A stretch of DNA of 64,000 nucleotides from Geomonas azotofigens (lineage in GTDB: Bacteria; Desulfobacterota; Desulfuromonadia; Geobacterales; Geobacteraceae): the NCBI RefSeq assembly GCF_018919395.1, contig NZ_JAHLME010000006.1, positions 124,001-188,000 on the forward strand, read 5' to 3'. The position numbers and the translations under genes were made by a program. Positions 8,804 to 16,524 of this stretch are shown here, one piece after another (the stretch's first letter is position 1; each line of letters opens with the position of its first letter). The notes below the pieces were generated by a model. It had not been told where the DNA came from and did not search any database. It saw only the letters and a program-made list of their open reading frames with translations.

Positions 8804-9784
8804 TTACCCACCGATCCTCGACATGTTGACCACCGCCTGCTCGGCGCCTTCCTCGGCGATATGGTGCCGTCCCGGCTTCTGGGTCACGATGCTCTTCAGG
8901 GTCTGCCGCAGCGCCTCCGGGTCATCCGATGCCAGTAGCGGCTTCAGGTCCGTCCCCTGTTCCGAGAAGAGGCAGCCGCGCACCCGGCCGGTCGCCGTGA
9001 TCCTGATCCGGTTGCAGCTCTCGCAGAAGTGGCCGGAAACCGGGGTGATGATCCCGATGGCGCCCGCCGCCCCCTGTATCTTGTAGTTCCTGGCCGGTCC
9101 CGCCATCTCCGAGCTGACCAGCGGCAGCAGCGGGTAGCGCTCGCCGATTGCCGCCAGGATCTCGCTCCCCGGCATGCTCTGCGCGCCCCATTCCTCATCC
9201 TTGAGGGTCGGCATGTACTCTATGAAGCGGACCGTGAACGGCTTTTCCAGGGTCAAAGCGGCGAAGTCCAGGATCTCGTGATCGTTCACCCCGCGCATCA
9301 CCACCATGTTGATCTTGAGGGGACCGAAGCCCGCTTTCTGCGCCGCCTCGATCCCGGCCAGCACCCGGCCCAGGTCCGCTCCGCGGGTGATCCTGGCGAA
9401 GGTTTCCGGCTGCAGGGAGTCGAGGCTTATGTTGAGCCTCGCCACCCCGGCATCCTTGAGCGGCTGGGCCAGCTCTTCCAGCAGCAGCCCGTTGGTGGTC
9501 AGCACCAGTTCCTTGAGCCCCGGCAGCGCCGAGAGGCGTCCCAGGAAATCGACCAGCCCCTTCCGCACCAGCGGCTCGCCGCCGGTGACCCGGATCTTCT
9601 CTATCCCCTGCTCCACGCAGGCGGCGGAGACCCGATAGAGCTCCTCGTAGCTCAGCATCTCTTTATGCTCGAGCTTCGCCACTCCCTGCGCCGGCATGCA
9701 GTAACAGCAGCGCATGTTGCAGCGGTCGGTGACCGAGAGTCTTAAGTAGTTGATCCGCCTGCCGTAGGTATCGATCAGTGCCAT
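8804..9784 (-). CDS. moaA: GTP 3',8-cyclase MoaA
   Basis: 326-residue radical SAM enzyme for the first step of molybdopterin synthesis, GTP to 3',8-cyclo-7,8-dihydro-GTP. The N-terminal cluster motif is CNMRCCYC (Cys22, 26, 29), followed by VTGGEPL. The C-terminal second cluster region is HFCESCNRIRITATGRVRGC, and the chain ends in the Gly-Gly tail (SRIGG) needed for catalysis in the family. The start at 9784 has AAGGGAG upstream. Length is typical. It is divergent from the alcohol dehydrogenase gene, with which it shares a 490-bp intergenic region, and leads the minus-strand cluster toward MOSC and etfBA. Confidence 0.97.
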   Translation of the reverse strand: MALIDTYGRRINYLRLSVTDRCNMRCCYCMPAQGVAKLEHKEMLSYEELYRVSAACVEQGIEKIRVTGGEPLVRKGLVDFLGRLSALPGLKELVLTTNGLLLEELAQPLKDAGVARLNISLDSLQPETFARITRGADLGRVLAGIEAAQKAGFGPLKINMVVMRGVNDHEILDFAALTLEKPFTVRFIEYMPTLKDEEWGAQSMPGSEILAAIGERYPLLPLVSSEMAGPARNYKIQGAAGAIGIITPVSGHFCESCNRIRITATGRVRGCLFSEQGTDLKPLLASDDPEALRQTLKSIVTQKPGRHHIAEEGAEQAVVNMSRIGG

Positions 9785-9842
9785 GTCTTACTCCCTTCGG
9801 AAACACGCCTCGCCGTATACAAAGGCAATATCGATACCAATT

Positions 9843-10153: not shown

Positions 10154-10169
10154 TGGTACGCACCTTGCG
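10154..10169 (+). promoter_or_regulatory. Sigma-54 promoter for the alcohol dehydrogenase gene
   Basis: TGGTACGCACCTTGCG matches the -24/-12 consensus TGGCACG-N4-TTGCA with the required spacing: GG at 10155-10156 and GC at 10167-10168. It predicts a transcript start near 10180 and a leader of roughly 95 bases. Two GTTCC-N5-GGARC dyads upstream fit an enhancer-binding activator. Confidence 0.75.
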
Positions 10170-10274
10170 ATAGCGTAGAAAACCGTTTTAGGAAAGTGTA
10201 TGCAGCATGGCACCACTATCTTAAAAACAAAAAGAACCGGGTCCAGCCCGGAAAAACAACAGGGGGAAATGAAA

Positions 10275-11438
10275 ATGGCATTAGGAGAGCAGACTTACGG
10301 TTTCTTCATTCCGACGGTATCGCTGATGGGCGTTGGTTCCGCTAAGGAAACCGGCGAGCAGGTCAAGGCACTGGGCGCATCCAAGGCGCTGATCGTCACC
10401 GACAAAGGCCTCTCGGCCATGGGCGTTGCCGACAAGATCAAGGAGCAGGTGGAAGCTGCCGGCGTTAAAGCTATCATCTTCGACGGCGCCGAGCCGAACC
10501 CGACCGACATCAACGTGCACGACGGCGTGAAGGTGTACCAGGAAAACGGTTGCGACGCGATCATCTCCCTGGGCGGCGGCTCCTCCCACGACTGTGGTAA
10601 GGGCATCGGCCTGGTCATCGGCAACGGCGGCCACATCCGCGACTTCGAAGGCGTGAACAAGTCCACCAAATCCATGCCGGCATTCGTCGCCATCAACACC
10701 ACCGCCGGCACCGCTTCCGAAATGACCCGCTTCTGCATCATCACCAACACCGACACCCACGTGAAGATGGCCATCGTCGACTGGCGCTGCACTCCGAACA
10801 TCGCCATCAACGACCCGCTGCTCATGGTCGGCAAGCCGGCAGCCCTGACCGCTGCCACCGGTATGGACGCCCTGACCCACGCGGTTGAGGCTTACGTCTC
10901 CACCATCGCCACCCCGATCACCGACGCATGCGCCATCAAGGCCATCGAGCTGATCGCCGAGTACCTCTCCAAGGCAGTCGCCAACGGCGAAGACCTCGAG
11001 GCACGCGACAAGATGGCTTACGCCGAGTACCTGGCCGGCATGGCGTTCAACAACGCATCCCTTGGCTACGTCCACTCCATGGCTCACCAGCTGGGCGGCT
11101 TCTACAACCTGCCGCACGGCGTCTGCAACGCCATCCTGCTGCCGGCAGTCAGCCAGTACAACCTGATCGCCTGCCCGAAGCGTTTCGCTGACATCGCGAA
11201 AGCCCTGGGCGAGAACGTCGACGGCCTGTCCGTGACCGAAGCCGGCCAGAAGGCCATCGACAGGATCCGCACCCTCTCCGCTTCCATCGGCATCCCGACC
11301 GGCCTCAAGGCCCTCAATGTCAAGGAAGAGGACCTGGCCATCATGGCAGAGAACGCGAAGAAGGACGCTTGCCAGTTCACCAACCCGCGCAAAGCGACCC
11401 TCGAGCAGGTCATCCAGATCTTCAAGGATGCAATGTAA
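10275..11438 (+). CDS. Iron-containing alcohol dehydrogenase
   Basis: 387-residue group III NAD-dependent alcohol dehydrogenase, likely oxidising a primary alcohol to the aldehyde used by the oxidoreductase encoded next. Visible motifs are the nucleotide-binding GGGSSHDCGK, the metal-binding TGMDALTHAVEAY (Asp, His), and the further ligands in YVHSMAHQLGG and LPHGVCNA. The start at 10275 has GGGGG eight bases upstream; the ATG at 10269 is too close to it. Codon choice is strongly biased to GC-ending preferred codons, suggesting high expression. A sigma-54 promoter precedes it, and 408 bp of repeats and leader RNA separate it from the aldehyde oxidoreductase gene. Confidence 0.95.
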   Translation: MALGEQTYGFFIPTVSLMGVGSAKETGEQVKALGASKALIVTDKGLSAMGVADKIKEQVEAAGVKAIIFDGAEPNPTDINVHDGVKVYQENGCDAIISLGGGSSHDCGKGIGLVIGNGGHIRDFEGVNKSTKSMPAFVAINTTAGTASEMTRFCIITNTDTHVKMAIVDWRCTPNIAINDPLLMVGKPAALTAATGMDALTHAVEAYVSTIATPITDACAIKAIELIAEYLSKAVANGEDLEARDKMAYAEYLAGMAFNNASLGYVHSMAHQLGGFYNLPHGVCNAILLPAVSQYNLIACPKRFADIAKALGENVDGLSVTEAGQKAIDRIRTLSASIGIPTGLKALNVKEEDLAIMAENAKKDACQFTNPRKATLEQVIQIFKDAM

Positions 11439-11553: not shown

Positions 11554-11578
11554 GTAGGGGCGAATAATCATTCGCCCC
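11554..11578. repeat. REP element, GTAGGGGCGAATAAT family, copy 1
   Basis: TGTA followed by a perfect nine-base stem GGGGCGAAT / ATTCGCCCC around AATC. Four more copies lie at 16420, 16500, 52307 and 52390. Confidence 0.8.
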
Positions 11579-11604: not shown

Positions 11605-11690
11605 AGGCAACACCGCCTGCGGGCCCAACCGGCGCGCAGGCCCGAACACATGCAAGAGATGCGTAAGCGGTGTCGGGTCAGTCACGCATC
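11605..11690 (+). promoter_or_regulatory. Structured stretch upstream of the riboswitch
   Basis: Several complementary segments occur here: ACACCGC with GCGGTGT, GGGCC with GGCCC, and GATGCGT with ACGCATC. They could be a leader fold, a terminator of the upstream transcript, or a repeat. I see no sigma-54 promoter and no clear -10/-35 pair for the aldehyde oxidoreductase transcript. Confidence 0.35.
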
Positions 11691-11696
11691 AAAAAA

Positions 11697-11773
11697 TCTC
11701 CGAGCCGTCGCAGCCTAAAAGGGACCTTCCCTCATGGCTCCAGGCCAACGGGTTTCGCTGGAAACGGTGGAGC
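11697..11773 (+). promoter_or_regulatory. Molybdenum/tungsten cofactor riboswitch (Moco/Tuco RNA motif)
   Basis: The RNA matches my memory of the Moco motif: CTCCGAGCC at the 5' side, an AAAAGGGACCTTCCC hairpin, GGCTC closing the second stem, GCCAACGGGTTTCGCTGG, GAAAC, and GGTGGAG at the 3' side. Stems read directly are CTCC (11698) with GGAG (11769), GAGCC (11702) with GGCTC (11736), GGGA with TCCC, and GTTTC with GAAAC. Just downstream, CTCCCT (11774-11779) is fully complementary to the Shine-Dalgarno AGGGAG (11831-11836) of the aldehyde oxidoreductase gene, so translational control is likely. Moco or Tuco subtype is not decided here. Confidence 0.8.
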
Positions 11774-11846
11774 CTCCCTCTTGGAAAGGAGTCCCGGCGG
11801 TCAGCGCTGCCGGTAGAACTAAACAAAAACAGGGAGCTTGAAAAGC

Positions 11847-13577
11847 ATGGATAAGATTTTTCGCGTCAACATGACCGACCTCACCACCAAGATCGAAGAA
11901 GTACCGGCAGCATGGGCAGGCCTGGGTGGCCGTGGCCTCACCTCCACCATCGTGGCCGCCGAAGTACCGCCGACCTGCCACGCGCTTTCCGCCGACAACA
12001 AGCTGGTGTTCGCACCGGGCCTTCTGACCGGCACCCCGGCCGCCAACTCCGGCCGTCTCTCCGCAGGCGCCAAGAGCCCGCTCACCGGCGGCATCAAAGA
12101 GTCCAACGCCGGCGGCACCGCGGCGCAGATGCTGGCGAAACTCGGCATCAAGGCCCTCATCATCGAAGGCGCACCGAAAACCGGCGCCTGGTACAACCTG
12201 GCCGTGGGCGTGAACGGCGTCACCATCAACGAGGAGAAGGAACTGCTGGGCCTTGGTAACTTCGCCGTCATCGACGCGGTCGAGGCCCGCCTGGGCAAGA
12301 AGACCGGCGTCCTCACCATCGGCCCGGCCGGCGAACTGAAGATGACCGCCGCCAACATCTCCGTCAAGGACCCCGACAGCAAGATCCGCAGCCACGGCCG
12401 TGGCGGCCTGGGCGCAGTCATGGGCTCCAAGCAGATCAAGTTCATCTCCATCGACGGCGAAGGCGCACCGGGCGTGAAGATCGCCGATCCCGAGAAATTC
12501 AAGGGCGCAGCCAAGGTGTTCGCCAAGGCGCTTCTCGACCACCCCGTTTCCGGCGAGGGGCTGCCGACCTACGGCACCAACGTCCTGGTCAACATCCTCA
12601 ACGAGGCCGGCGGCCTCCCCACCAAGAACTTCACCGTCGGCCAGTTCGAAGGCCACGACAAGATCTCCGGCGAGACCATGCACGACACCATCGCGGCCCG
12701 CGGCGGGAAGGTCAAGCACGGCTGCCACGCCGGCTGCATCATCCAGTGCTCGCAGGTCTACAACGATAAAGACGGCAAGTACGTCACCTCCGGCTTCGAG
12801 TACGAGACCATCTGGGGCCTGGGCGCCGACTGCTGCATCGACAACCTGGACGACATCGCCCGCGCCGACAACCTGATGGACGACATCGGGATCGACTCCA
12901 TCGAGACCGCGGTCATGTTCGGCGTGGCCATGGAGGCCGGCATCCTTAACTGGGGCGACTCCAAGGAGATGCTCCGCCTGCTGACCGAGGAAATCGCCAA
13001 GGGGACCGCGCTGGGCCGCGTCCTGGGCGGCGGCGCAGGCTCCGTCGGCCGCACCTACGGCGTGACTCGCGTACCGGTCGTCAAGAACCAGGGCATCCCG
13101 GCCTACGACCCGCGCTCCGTCAAGGGGATCGGCATCACCTACGCCACCTCCACCATGGGCGCCGACCACACCTCCGGCTACACCATCGCCACCAACATCC
13201 TGAACGTCGGCGGCTACGTCGATCCGCTCAAGAAGGACGGCCAGGTCGAGCTCTCCCGTAACCTGCAGATCGCGACCGCCGCGGTCGACTCCACCGGTAT
13301 GTGCATCTTCGTCGCCTTCCCGGCGCTGGACATCCCGGAGTGCCTGCCGGCCCTGATCGACATGATCAACGCCCGCTTCGGCATCGCCCTCACCGGCGAC
13401 GACGTCACCAACCTGGGCAAGCACATCCTGAAACTGGAGCGTGACTTCAACCAGAAAGCCGGCCTCACCAGCGTCCACGACCGCCTGCCGGACTTCTTCA
13501 AGACCGAGCCGGTCGCGCCGCACAACGCGGTGTGGGACTTCACCGACGCGGAAATCGACGAGTTCTGGAACTTCTAG
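11847..13577 (+). CDS. Aldehyde:ferredoxin oxidoreductase, tungsten-pterin enzyme
   Basis: 576-residue AOR-family enzyme. It oxidises aldehydes to carboxylic acids, or reduces acids, at a tungsten bis-pterin site and transfers electrons through one [4Fe-4S] cluster. The N-terminal domain has the pterin-binding LGGRGLTS and the PLTGGIKESNAGG region. The cluster ligands are in HGCHAGCIIQCSQ (C-x3-C-x3-C, as in many bacterial members, where the archaeal form is C-x2-C-x3-C) and DSTGMC near the C-terminus. The ATG at 11847 has AGGGAG ten bases upstream. Neighbours are an alcohol dehydrogenase before it and moaD-, moeB- and moeA-like genes after it; no Fe-S or FAD subunit gene (AorA, AorC type) is adjacent. 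Codon bias suggests high expression. Confidence 0.93.
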   Translation: MDKIFRVNMTDLTTKIEEVPAAWAGLGGRGLTSTIVAAEVPPTCHALSADNKLVFAPGLLTGTPAANSGRLSAGAKSPLTGGIKESNAGGTAAQMLAKLGIKALIIEGAPKTGAWYNLAVGVNGVTINEEKELLGLGNFAVIDAVEARLGKKTGVLTIGPAGELKMTAANISVKDPDSKIRSHGRGGLGAVMGSKQIKFISIDGEGAPGVKIADPEKFKGAAKVFAKALLDHPVSGEGLPTYGTNVLVNILNEAGGLPTKNFTVGQFEGHDKISGETMHDTIAARGGKVKHGCHAGCIIQCSQVYNDKDGKYVTSGFEYETIWGLGADCCIDNLDDIARADNLMDDIGIDSIETAVMFGVAMEAGILNWGDSKEMLRLLTEEIAKGTALGRVLGGGAGSVGRTYGVTRVPVVKNQGIPAYDPRSVKGIGITYATSTMGADHTSGYTIATNILNVGGYVDPLKKDGQVELSRNLQIATAAVDSTGMCIFVAFPALDIPECLPALIDMINARFGIALTGDDVTNLGKHILKLERDFNQKAGLTSVHDRLPDFFKTEPVAPHNAVWDFTDAEIDEFWNF

Positions 13578-13588
13578 GAACCACCATT

Positions 13589-13622
13589 ACCCGGCGTGAC
13601 GGAAGTCACGCCGGGTTTTTCC
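13589..13622 (+). terminator. Intrinsic terminator after the aldehyde oxidoreductase
   Basis: A perfect 12-bp stem ACCCGGCGTGAC / GTCACGCCGGGT with a GGAA tetraloop, followed by TTTTT. The downstream cofactor genes are then read only by read-through or their own promoter, giving much more enzyme than cofactor-gene transcript. Confidence 0.9.
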
Positions 13623-13648: not shown

Positions 13649-13873
13649 ATGAAGATAACACTCAAGCTTTTCGCCACGTTCAGAAACGGCAGGTTCAAGA
13701 TCGCCGAGCAGGAGCTCGCCGAGGGGACCGAGGTGCGCCAGGTGGTGCTGGGCCTTGGGCTTACCGAGGAGGAAATCGGCATCGTCATGCTCAATGGCCG
13801 GCACGGTGAACTGGACAGCAAGCTCGCCAACGGCGATACCCTTTCGCTCTTTCCCCTGGTCGGAGGAGGCTGA
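13649..13873 (+). CDS. MoaD/ThiS-like sulfur carrier protein
   Basis: 74-residue ubiquitin-fold protein ending in Gly-Gly-Gly (FPLVGGG). The C-terminal glycine is the site that is adenylated and thiocarboxylated to donate sulfur to the pterin dithiolene. Sequence marks are the beta-grasp start MKITLKLFATFRNG and a HGELDSKLANGDTLSLFP tail. The start at 13649 has AGCAGG upstream; longer versions would run through the terminator. The stop overlaps nothing but is followed after one base by the E1-like gene, its expected activating partner. Similar small proteins accompany bacterial tungsten AOR genes. Confidence 0.88.
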   Translation: MKITLKLFATFRNGRFKIAEQELAEGTEVRQVVLGLGLTEEEIGIVMLNGRHGELDSKLANGDTLSLFPLVGGG

Positions 13874-16419: not shown

Positions 16420-16444
16420 GTAGGGGCGAATAATCATTCGCCCC
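16420..16444. repeat. REP element, GTAGGGGCGAATAAT family, copy 2
   Basis: GTA plus the nine-base stem GGGGCGAAT / ATTCGCCCC, identical in the stem to copy 1. The rest of the 16390-16571 gap holds copy 3 and no gene I can support. Confidence 0.8.
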
Positions 16445-16499: not shown

Positions 16500-16524
16500 G
16501 GGCAAATAATTATTTGCCCCTACA
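16500..16524. repeat. REP element, GTAGGGGCGAATAAT family, copy 3 (inverted)
   Basis: GGGCAAATAATTATTTGCCC followed by CTACA. It is a variant in opposite orientation to copy 2, 56 bp away; the pair forms an inverted tandem. Confidence 0.8.

Follow-up and report, generated by a model that had tools for sequence, protein, structure and literature searches.

The aldehyde:ferredoxin oxidoreductase (AOR) gene of Geomonas azotofigens is preceded by an RNA that resembles a riboswitch, raising the question of what this RNA would sense, and whether and by which route it would turn synthesis of the enzyme on or off. The Moco RNA class was defined by Regulski et al. in 2008 (PMC2408646), who, in the part of the paper available to us, already placed such RNAs upstream of cofactor-using enzymes, demonstrated OFF control of E. 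coli moaA, noted both ribosome-binding-site-type and terminator-type platforms, and tied the 58 of 176 Moco RNAs that lack P3 to the tungsten cofactor and to enzymes using it; the same portion states that direct ligand binding could not be demonstrated for the Moco/W-cofactor class. A 2022 survey, also available in part, uses the name Wco riboswitch (PMC9481103), and the accessible sections of the Pelobacter carbinolicus genome paper predict Moco riboswitches with transcription control for aorA1-aorA3 (PMC3543383). As both the 2008 and the P. carbinolicus papers came earlier, the initial annotation of this locus overstated the novelty of a cofactor-using target.

The stretch of DNA analysed here, referred to as the window, comprises 64,000 nucleotides. 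Its AOR gene (11847-13577, + strand, 576 aa) carries the PF02730 (AFOR_N) and PF01314 (AFOR_C) domains, and the protein matches the PDB sequences 9mqx, 9g7j, 1aor and 8c0z, of which 1aor and 8c0z are tungsten-containing; the window AOR is a putative tungsten enzyme. By AOR protein, the nearest named locus is that of Geomonas diazotrophica (L034), at 100% over the matched segment. An intrinsic terminator on the + strand at 13589-13621 (-25.9 kcal/mol, z -6.06, a stem followed by TTTTT) separates AOR from the ThiS/MoaD-like, ThiF-family and MoeA-family genes (moaD/thiF/moeA), just as had been annotated; if this terminator works, the MoaD/ThiS-family sulfur carrier gene (13649-13873, +, PF02597) would lie outside the transcript of the switch.

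Upstream of the RNA are an Fe-ADH gene (10200-11438) and moaA (about 8804-9787, - strand), the latter with a GGGAG-type Shine-Dalgarno sequence (SD) though no RF01055 match stands ahead of it. A look at the + strand ahead of the leader found no sigma-70-like site, and readthrough from the Fe-ADH gene into the leader is possible. Directly upstream of the RNA, a block at 11658-11690 with GATGCGT/ACGCATC arms is kept in several Geomonas loci and may be a promoter or a regulator site. Further upstream, TGGTACGCACCTTGCG at 10154-10169, ahead of the Fe-ADH gene, resembles a sigma-54 promoter. Besides, the palindromic repeat TAGGGGCGAATAATCATTCGCCCC occurs twice in the window, along with a variant, GGGCAAATAATTATTTGCCC (11555-11578, 16421-16444 and 16500-16519), and several Geomonas loci likewise have it ahead of the RNA. 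A search of PLSDB plasmids for the leader gave no match.

The initial annotation had proposed a Moco RNA ahead of AOR, to be scored against the Rfam covariance model, and cmscan returns a significant RF01055 match at 11686-11807 on the + strand (56.9 bits against a cut-off of 36, E 5.4e-11), spanning model positions 1-135 of 135 and being the sole family above gathering threshold in the whole 64 kb window. By model score, the window RNA is certainly a member of the known Moco/W-cofactor riboswitch class. The P3 columns of the model are deleted in the cmscan alignment, so that the RNA is of the P3-less type; GGAAAC (11760-11765) caps P4 with a GNRA tetraloop, and a receptor-like bulge, CCUAA...AUGG in P2, aligns to the model at sequence level. 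A 26-pair RNAalifold consensus built from 25 aptamers contains the P1, P2, P4 and P5 stems, and nine of its pairs are kept through changes on both sides. In this consensus, the 5' strand of P1 (CTCC, 11698-11701) pairs with GGAG at 11788-11791, the P4 hairpin spans 11750-11775 with its GAAA tetraloop at 11761-11764, and P5 occupies 11777-11784 (11777-11778 with 11783-11784), all on the + strand; GGAAAC is invariant in all 25 aligned rows. The absence of P3 and the association with a gene of a W-enzyme family, the AOR family, both agree with the tungsten subtype and, by analogy, make the W cofactor the predicted ligand. AOR, with its ATG at 11847, is the next gene after the RNA, and its SD, AGGGAG, lies at 11831-11836, both as annotated; the annotated distance of 75 bases does not hold, as P1 ends at 11791, 55 nt ahead of the ATG, and the RF01055 match ends 39 nt ahead of it.

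How the RNA might reach the SD is suggested by the hexamer CTCCCT (11774-11779), which, as had been annotated, is exactly complementary to AGGGAG at 11831-11836; a repeat finder pairs this region as CTCCCTCTT/AACAGGGAG (89% of 9). In the consensus, C11774-U11775 belong to the base of P4 and C11777-C11778 to P5, which rules out the annotated position of an element immediately 3' of the RNA, separate from the aptamer. CCUCCC is invariant across the 25 aligned aptamers and forms the core strand in 43 of 45 AOR leaders, with CCUUCC in the other two (L039, L072). Thus, consensus position and conservation make the anti-SD a strand of the aptamer itself, and by consensus, repeat finder and folding the hexamer would be common to P4/P5 and to the proposed SD-sequestering helix. 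Since one strand would serve both structures, a direction absent from the initial annotation is also suggested, namely that cofactor means ON. In such a mechanism, CUCCC(U) on the 3' side of P4/P5 would, in the ligand-free RNA, pair with the AGGGAG of AOR some 50 nt downstream and keep ribosomes out; the cofactor would stabilise the aptamer, closing P4, P5 and P1 and using up the CUCCC strand, whereby the SD would be freed and AOR translated.

Complementarity alone is weak evidence for this pairing, because CCUCC resembles the anti-SD at the 3' end of 16S rRNA and many SDs can pair with it. AGGAG would suit 16S better than GGGAG, which is complementary to the CUCCC of the aptamer. We therefore took as evidence the counts of SD classes and the folding of chimeric controls. 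Among 80 named AOR loci gathered by similarity, three of them too truncated to judge the RNA, 44 have RF01055 5' of AOR; the gap between the end of the RNA and the gene is 20-42 nt in 42 of these and 91 and 212 nt in the other two. In the 45 RNA-bearing leaders that these form together with the window, the stretch between aptamer and SD is highly variable and the SD barely so. NGGAG occurs 3-14 nt from the start in 41 leaders (all except L067, L092, L095 and L099), and N is G in 39 of them, compared with 15 of 93 in the genes next to AOR loci and, across 400 kb of the G. azotofigens genome, 13 of 76 with simple ORF calls and 21 of 119 when third-position GC guided the choice of ORFs; in the window, with this second way of choosing ORFs, N is G at 5 of 17 sites, AOR being one of the five. 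Allowing up to 28 nt from the start, GGGAG precedes 42 of 45 RNA-bearing AORs and 9 of 33 RNA-less ones.

These counts bear on a reading in which the riboswitch is genuine and the SD:CUCCC match incidental, GGGAG being an inherited SD and any regulation running by another route. Four close RNA-less AORs (L044, L047, L049, L057) retain GGGAG, as such an inheritance would predict, and on a quick AOR tree the co-occurrence of RNA and GGGAG is not significant (median p 0.25 over seven supported independent pairs, which on average comprise 2.6 changing the same way, 0.1 opposite and 4.3 without difference), so that the two change together only as a trend. The GGGAG-type NGGAG of the window moaA, without an RF01055 match, and the ease with which SDs pair with CCUCC point the same way. 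Against this stand the contrast of 42/45 with 9/33, the terminator-type rows described below, which share the aptamer and rarely have GGGAG, and L071, whose AOR follows a decayed RF01055-like RNA (2355-2454, 23.7 bits with model R1, below the Rfam cut-off) and has an SD other than GGGAG. An incidental match is unlikely in our estimation. L085, L088, L091, L093 and L102 have an RNA of another class past the AOR gene, a cobalamin riboswitch (RF00174) whose start lies some 400-475 nt downstream.

Beyond the GGGAG core, the bases of the P5 loop and those 5' of the SD fit each other more closely than in permuted pairs, with p 0.0006 for 43 leaders (L072 and L106, which lack GGGA, were left out) and p 0.017 for the 20 unique combinations. 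The SD helix itself can show little covariation, because its core strand is nearly invariant (43/45). The permutation, Mann-Whitney and Fisher values given here ignore phylogeny, the named loci share species with the census described below, and ORF starts come from simple scripts.

Computed folding gives the pairing a direction. In the window leader, ViennaRNA predicts an SD accessibility of 0.13 unconstrained and 0.68 with the aptamer enforced; the SD:CUCCC pairing score, which adds up adjacent cells and can therefore pass 1, is 0.77, and the accessibility gain is 0.56. When the window aptamer was placed in silico before 111 leaders that belong to other genes of the G. azotofigens genome, the pairing score exceeded 0.5 in 13.5%, a proportion that lends the incidental match some further support, and the gain reached at least 0.5 in 4.5%. 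Averaged over 23 of the 45 AOR leaders, accessibility rises from 0.11 unconstrained to 0.41 with the aptamer enforced. Comparing 22 real leaders with 440 chimeras, in which the same aptamers were joined to leaders of other genes, the median pairing score is 0.91 against 0.004, scores above 0.5 occur in 14/22 against 65/440, and the accessibility gain is 0.30 against 0.12 (p 0.0006). Once the aptamer is enforced, real and chimeric leaders have equally open SDs (0.41 and 0.41, p 0.84), so that aptamer formation is predicted to lift a block specific to AOR leaders, which again points to ON. The score does not exceed 0.5 in 8 of the 22 real leaders, and in L048, L066, L088 and L099 the enforced aptamer frees the SD by at most 0.03. 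The direction is a prediction and not a measurement, as the energy model knows neither the ligand nor tertiary contacts.

The opposite direction has a precedent in the translational OFF control proposed for E. coli moaA, whose Moco RNA represses when Moco is present, according to the available part of the class description (PMC2408646); by this account the ligand would hide the SD, and excess cofactor would shut AOR down. The leaders in which the SD stays largely paired with the aptamer enforced are compatible with it. The moaA ribosome-binding site, however, appears to lie within P1, whereas the SD of AOR stands 39 nt beyond the 3' end of P1, and computed folds with the aptamer enforced have, on average, a more accessible SD, leaving an OFF switch at AOR rather improbable.

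Control might act instead on transcription, through intrinsic or Rho-dependent termination in the AOR leader. Intrinsic terminators were counted in a census covering 146 RF01055 RNAs of the same family; among the matches listed, 40 of its 48 genomes have one. Transcription control is what the accessible text on P. carbinolicus names (PMC3543383), and termination at the E. coli Moco site is reported by TaRTLEt in the portion available (PMC12121620). Among the matches listed, a terminator, defined as a hairpin of -12 kcal/mol or better plus a T-run, follows the RNA in 91 of 106 other rows (one further row has no ORF), including 15/15 rows of the moeA type and 17/17 upstream of an IDDTD-motif protein, and in none of the 39 rows whose target is an AOR gene with 50% identity or more. 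In the window, the spacer hairpin (11795-11812, +, -10.9 kcal/mol, z -1.54) has no U-run and is thus not an intrinsic terminator; together with the 0/39 rows, this rules out an intrinsic terminator in the AOR leader. The many terminators among the other rows favour control of transcription and the two leader findings speak against it; for AOR such control is quite improbable in our estimation.

The AOR rows also differ from the terminator rows in their spacing and SD. Among the matches listed, the RNA ends 26-51 nt before the start in 36 of 39 AOR rows, the remaining three having 152 nt (a tandem RNA), 227 nt and 615 nt (a miscalled start in L174), and GGGAG is present in 34/39 AOR rows against 5/91 terminator rows; with L174 corrected, its true SD being GGGAG, the former count becomes 35/39, and with tandem RNAs before one gene counted once the comparison is 33/38 against 5/83, again among the matches listed. 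The paralogous AORs L019, L172 and L212 (54-56% identity) and the gene L026 lack GGGAG.

The same division is found within one genome. Two more RF01055 RNAs above the cut-off occur in G. azotofigens, L001 before a 247-aa IDDTD-motif protein (SD AGGAG, terminator) and L002 before moeA, named by eye from sequence and position (SD GAGG, terminator). They have the same P3-less aptamer as the AOR leader but are then followed by terminators. Cofactor-using enzymes are not uniformly of the AOR-switch type, since L170, L032, L177 and L145 combine a tandem RF01055 pair and a terminator ahead of a gene that shares 27-32% identity with AOR; among these four, AFOR domains were confirmed in L170 only, and they look benzoyl-CoA-reductase-like by eye.

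Other targets of the aptamer were noted along the way. The conserved IDDTD protein of about 247 aa follows RF01055 and a terminator in L001, L012, L014, L017, L018, L020, L023 and L028, and the two such proteins scanned gave only a sub-threshold Pfam match, to TiaS_TCKD (23.1 against 27 bits). In L009, L157, L188 and L230, RF01055 RNAs, partly in tandem, precede porin-like outer-membrane proteins (by eye), perhaps serving metal oxyanion uptake, and AKTLEDVLKEKG is found near the start of those in L009 and L230. The RNAs of L223, L226 and L229, with matches of 110-111 nt, have about 12 extra bases in the P2 region and stand before an ABC-permease-like gene (by eye).

For the terminator-type RNAs, the models suggest the opposite sense. 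In 45 chosen terminator-type rows, enforcing the aptamer raises the mean terminator probability from 0.65 to 0.89 and lowers the number of rows with a terminator probability below 0.5 from 14 to 1, which would make these RNAs OFF switches on average. CCTTTCC, a candidate antiterminator through its complementarity to the GGAAAGG strand of the aptamer, occurs in 15 of 66 terminator leaders against 2.0 expected from shuffles; its count of 0/36 in AOR leaders says nothing, because 0.0 was expected there. The two RNAs of the same genome do not show the predicted change, with terminator probabilities of 0.98 to 0.95 (L001) and 0.90 to 0.91 (L002); 31 of the 45 rows favour the terminator already without the aptamer enforced, and the antiterminator exceeds 0.5 in only 9/45. 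For these three reasons the reading of opposite direction is weaker than that of the AOR leader, and by this weaker line of inference the aptamer with a terminator before moeA and most other targets in related genomes would be OFF. That one aptamer works in opposite senses in one cell, with CUCCC as anti-SD turning AOR ON and GGAAAGG in an antiterminator turning moeA and others OFF, is thus a tentative proposal from these models, which we hold to be somewhat doubtful.

A protein such as CsrA, whose motif is ANGGA, might instead bind GGA motifs in the aptamer and the SD and do the switching, and the window SD does fit with AGGGA. The motif is not matched by the TTGGGAG or TCGGGAG of many leaders, and a protein site leaves the match to the aptamer strand unexplained, so that switching by such a protein is very improbable. 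CsrA circuits are treated, in the part available, in a review (PMC7652899).

Taken together, the AOR leader is probably a Moco/W-cofactor riboswitch of the P3-less type whose platform acts on translation in the ON sense, a reading to which we give a probability of about 0.58, for the AOR switch alone, on the strength of sequence and computed folds. These likewise favour the annotated combination of a Moco/Tuco-type riboswitch, a translational platform and CTCCCT pairing with the SD. In the computed alternative fold the SD pairs with a strand of the aptamer, and the leader has no terminator, as would be anticipated for a translational riboswitch. We infer the ligand-driven folding, its direction, the translational effect and the identity of the W cofactor; the comparison of leaders suggests, short of proof, that the cofactor switches its own enzyme on by freeing the SD, and it is reasonable to infer that AOR synthesis is tied to cofactor supply.

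If this is true, AOR protein would be made only when there is cofactor to fill it, showing how a bacterium can use translation to keep the making of an apo-metalloenzyme in step with its cofactor supply. Furthermore, with a single tungsten enzyme under an ON switch, the W cofactor could be read out in living cells, and it could be tested cleanly whether the P3-less RNAs respond to the tungsten rather than to the molybdenum cofactor. The platform, with its anti-SD in the aptamer core, is conserved in many Geobacter, Desulfuromonas and Pelobacter relatives, differs from the terminator platforms that accompany this aptamer elsewhere, and appears to be new: in the literature searched, as far as its available parts go, we found no ON switch, anti-SD in the aptamer or opposite platforms described for the Moco class.

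Compared with RF01055 as Regulski et al. describe it in the portion available (PMC2408646), the window RNA shares the GAAA tetraloop, the CCUAA/AUGG receptor region and the P1, P2, P4 and P5 stems, and lacks P3, as do 58 of the 176 members given there. The switch tested in that description is OFF, with which the predicted ON of AOR contrasts: in E. coli moaA the SD apparently lies in P1, whereas in the window the CUCCC of P4/P5 is the proposed anti-SD. Closest in gene and RNA are aorA1-aorA3 of P. carbinolicus, which belong to the same RNA class and the same enzyme family; for these, the accessible part of the genome paper predicts control of transcription and describes no platform (PMC3543383), whereas the leader of the window would act on translation, through an anti-SD inside the aptamer.
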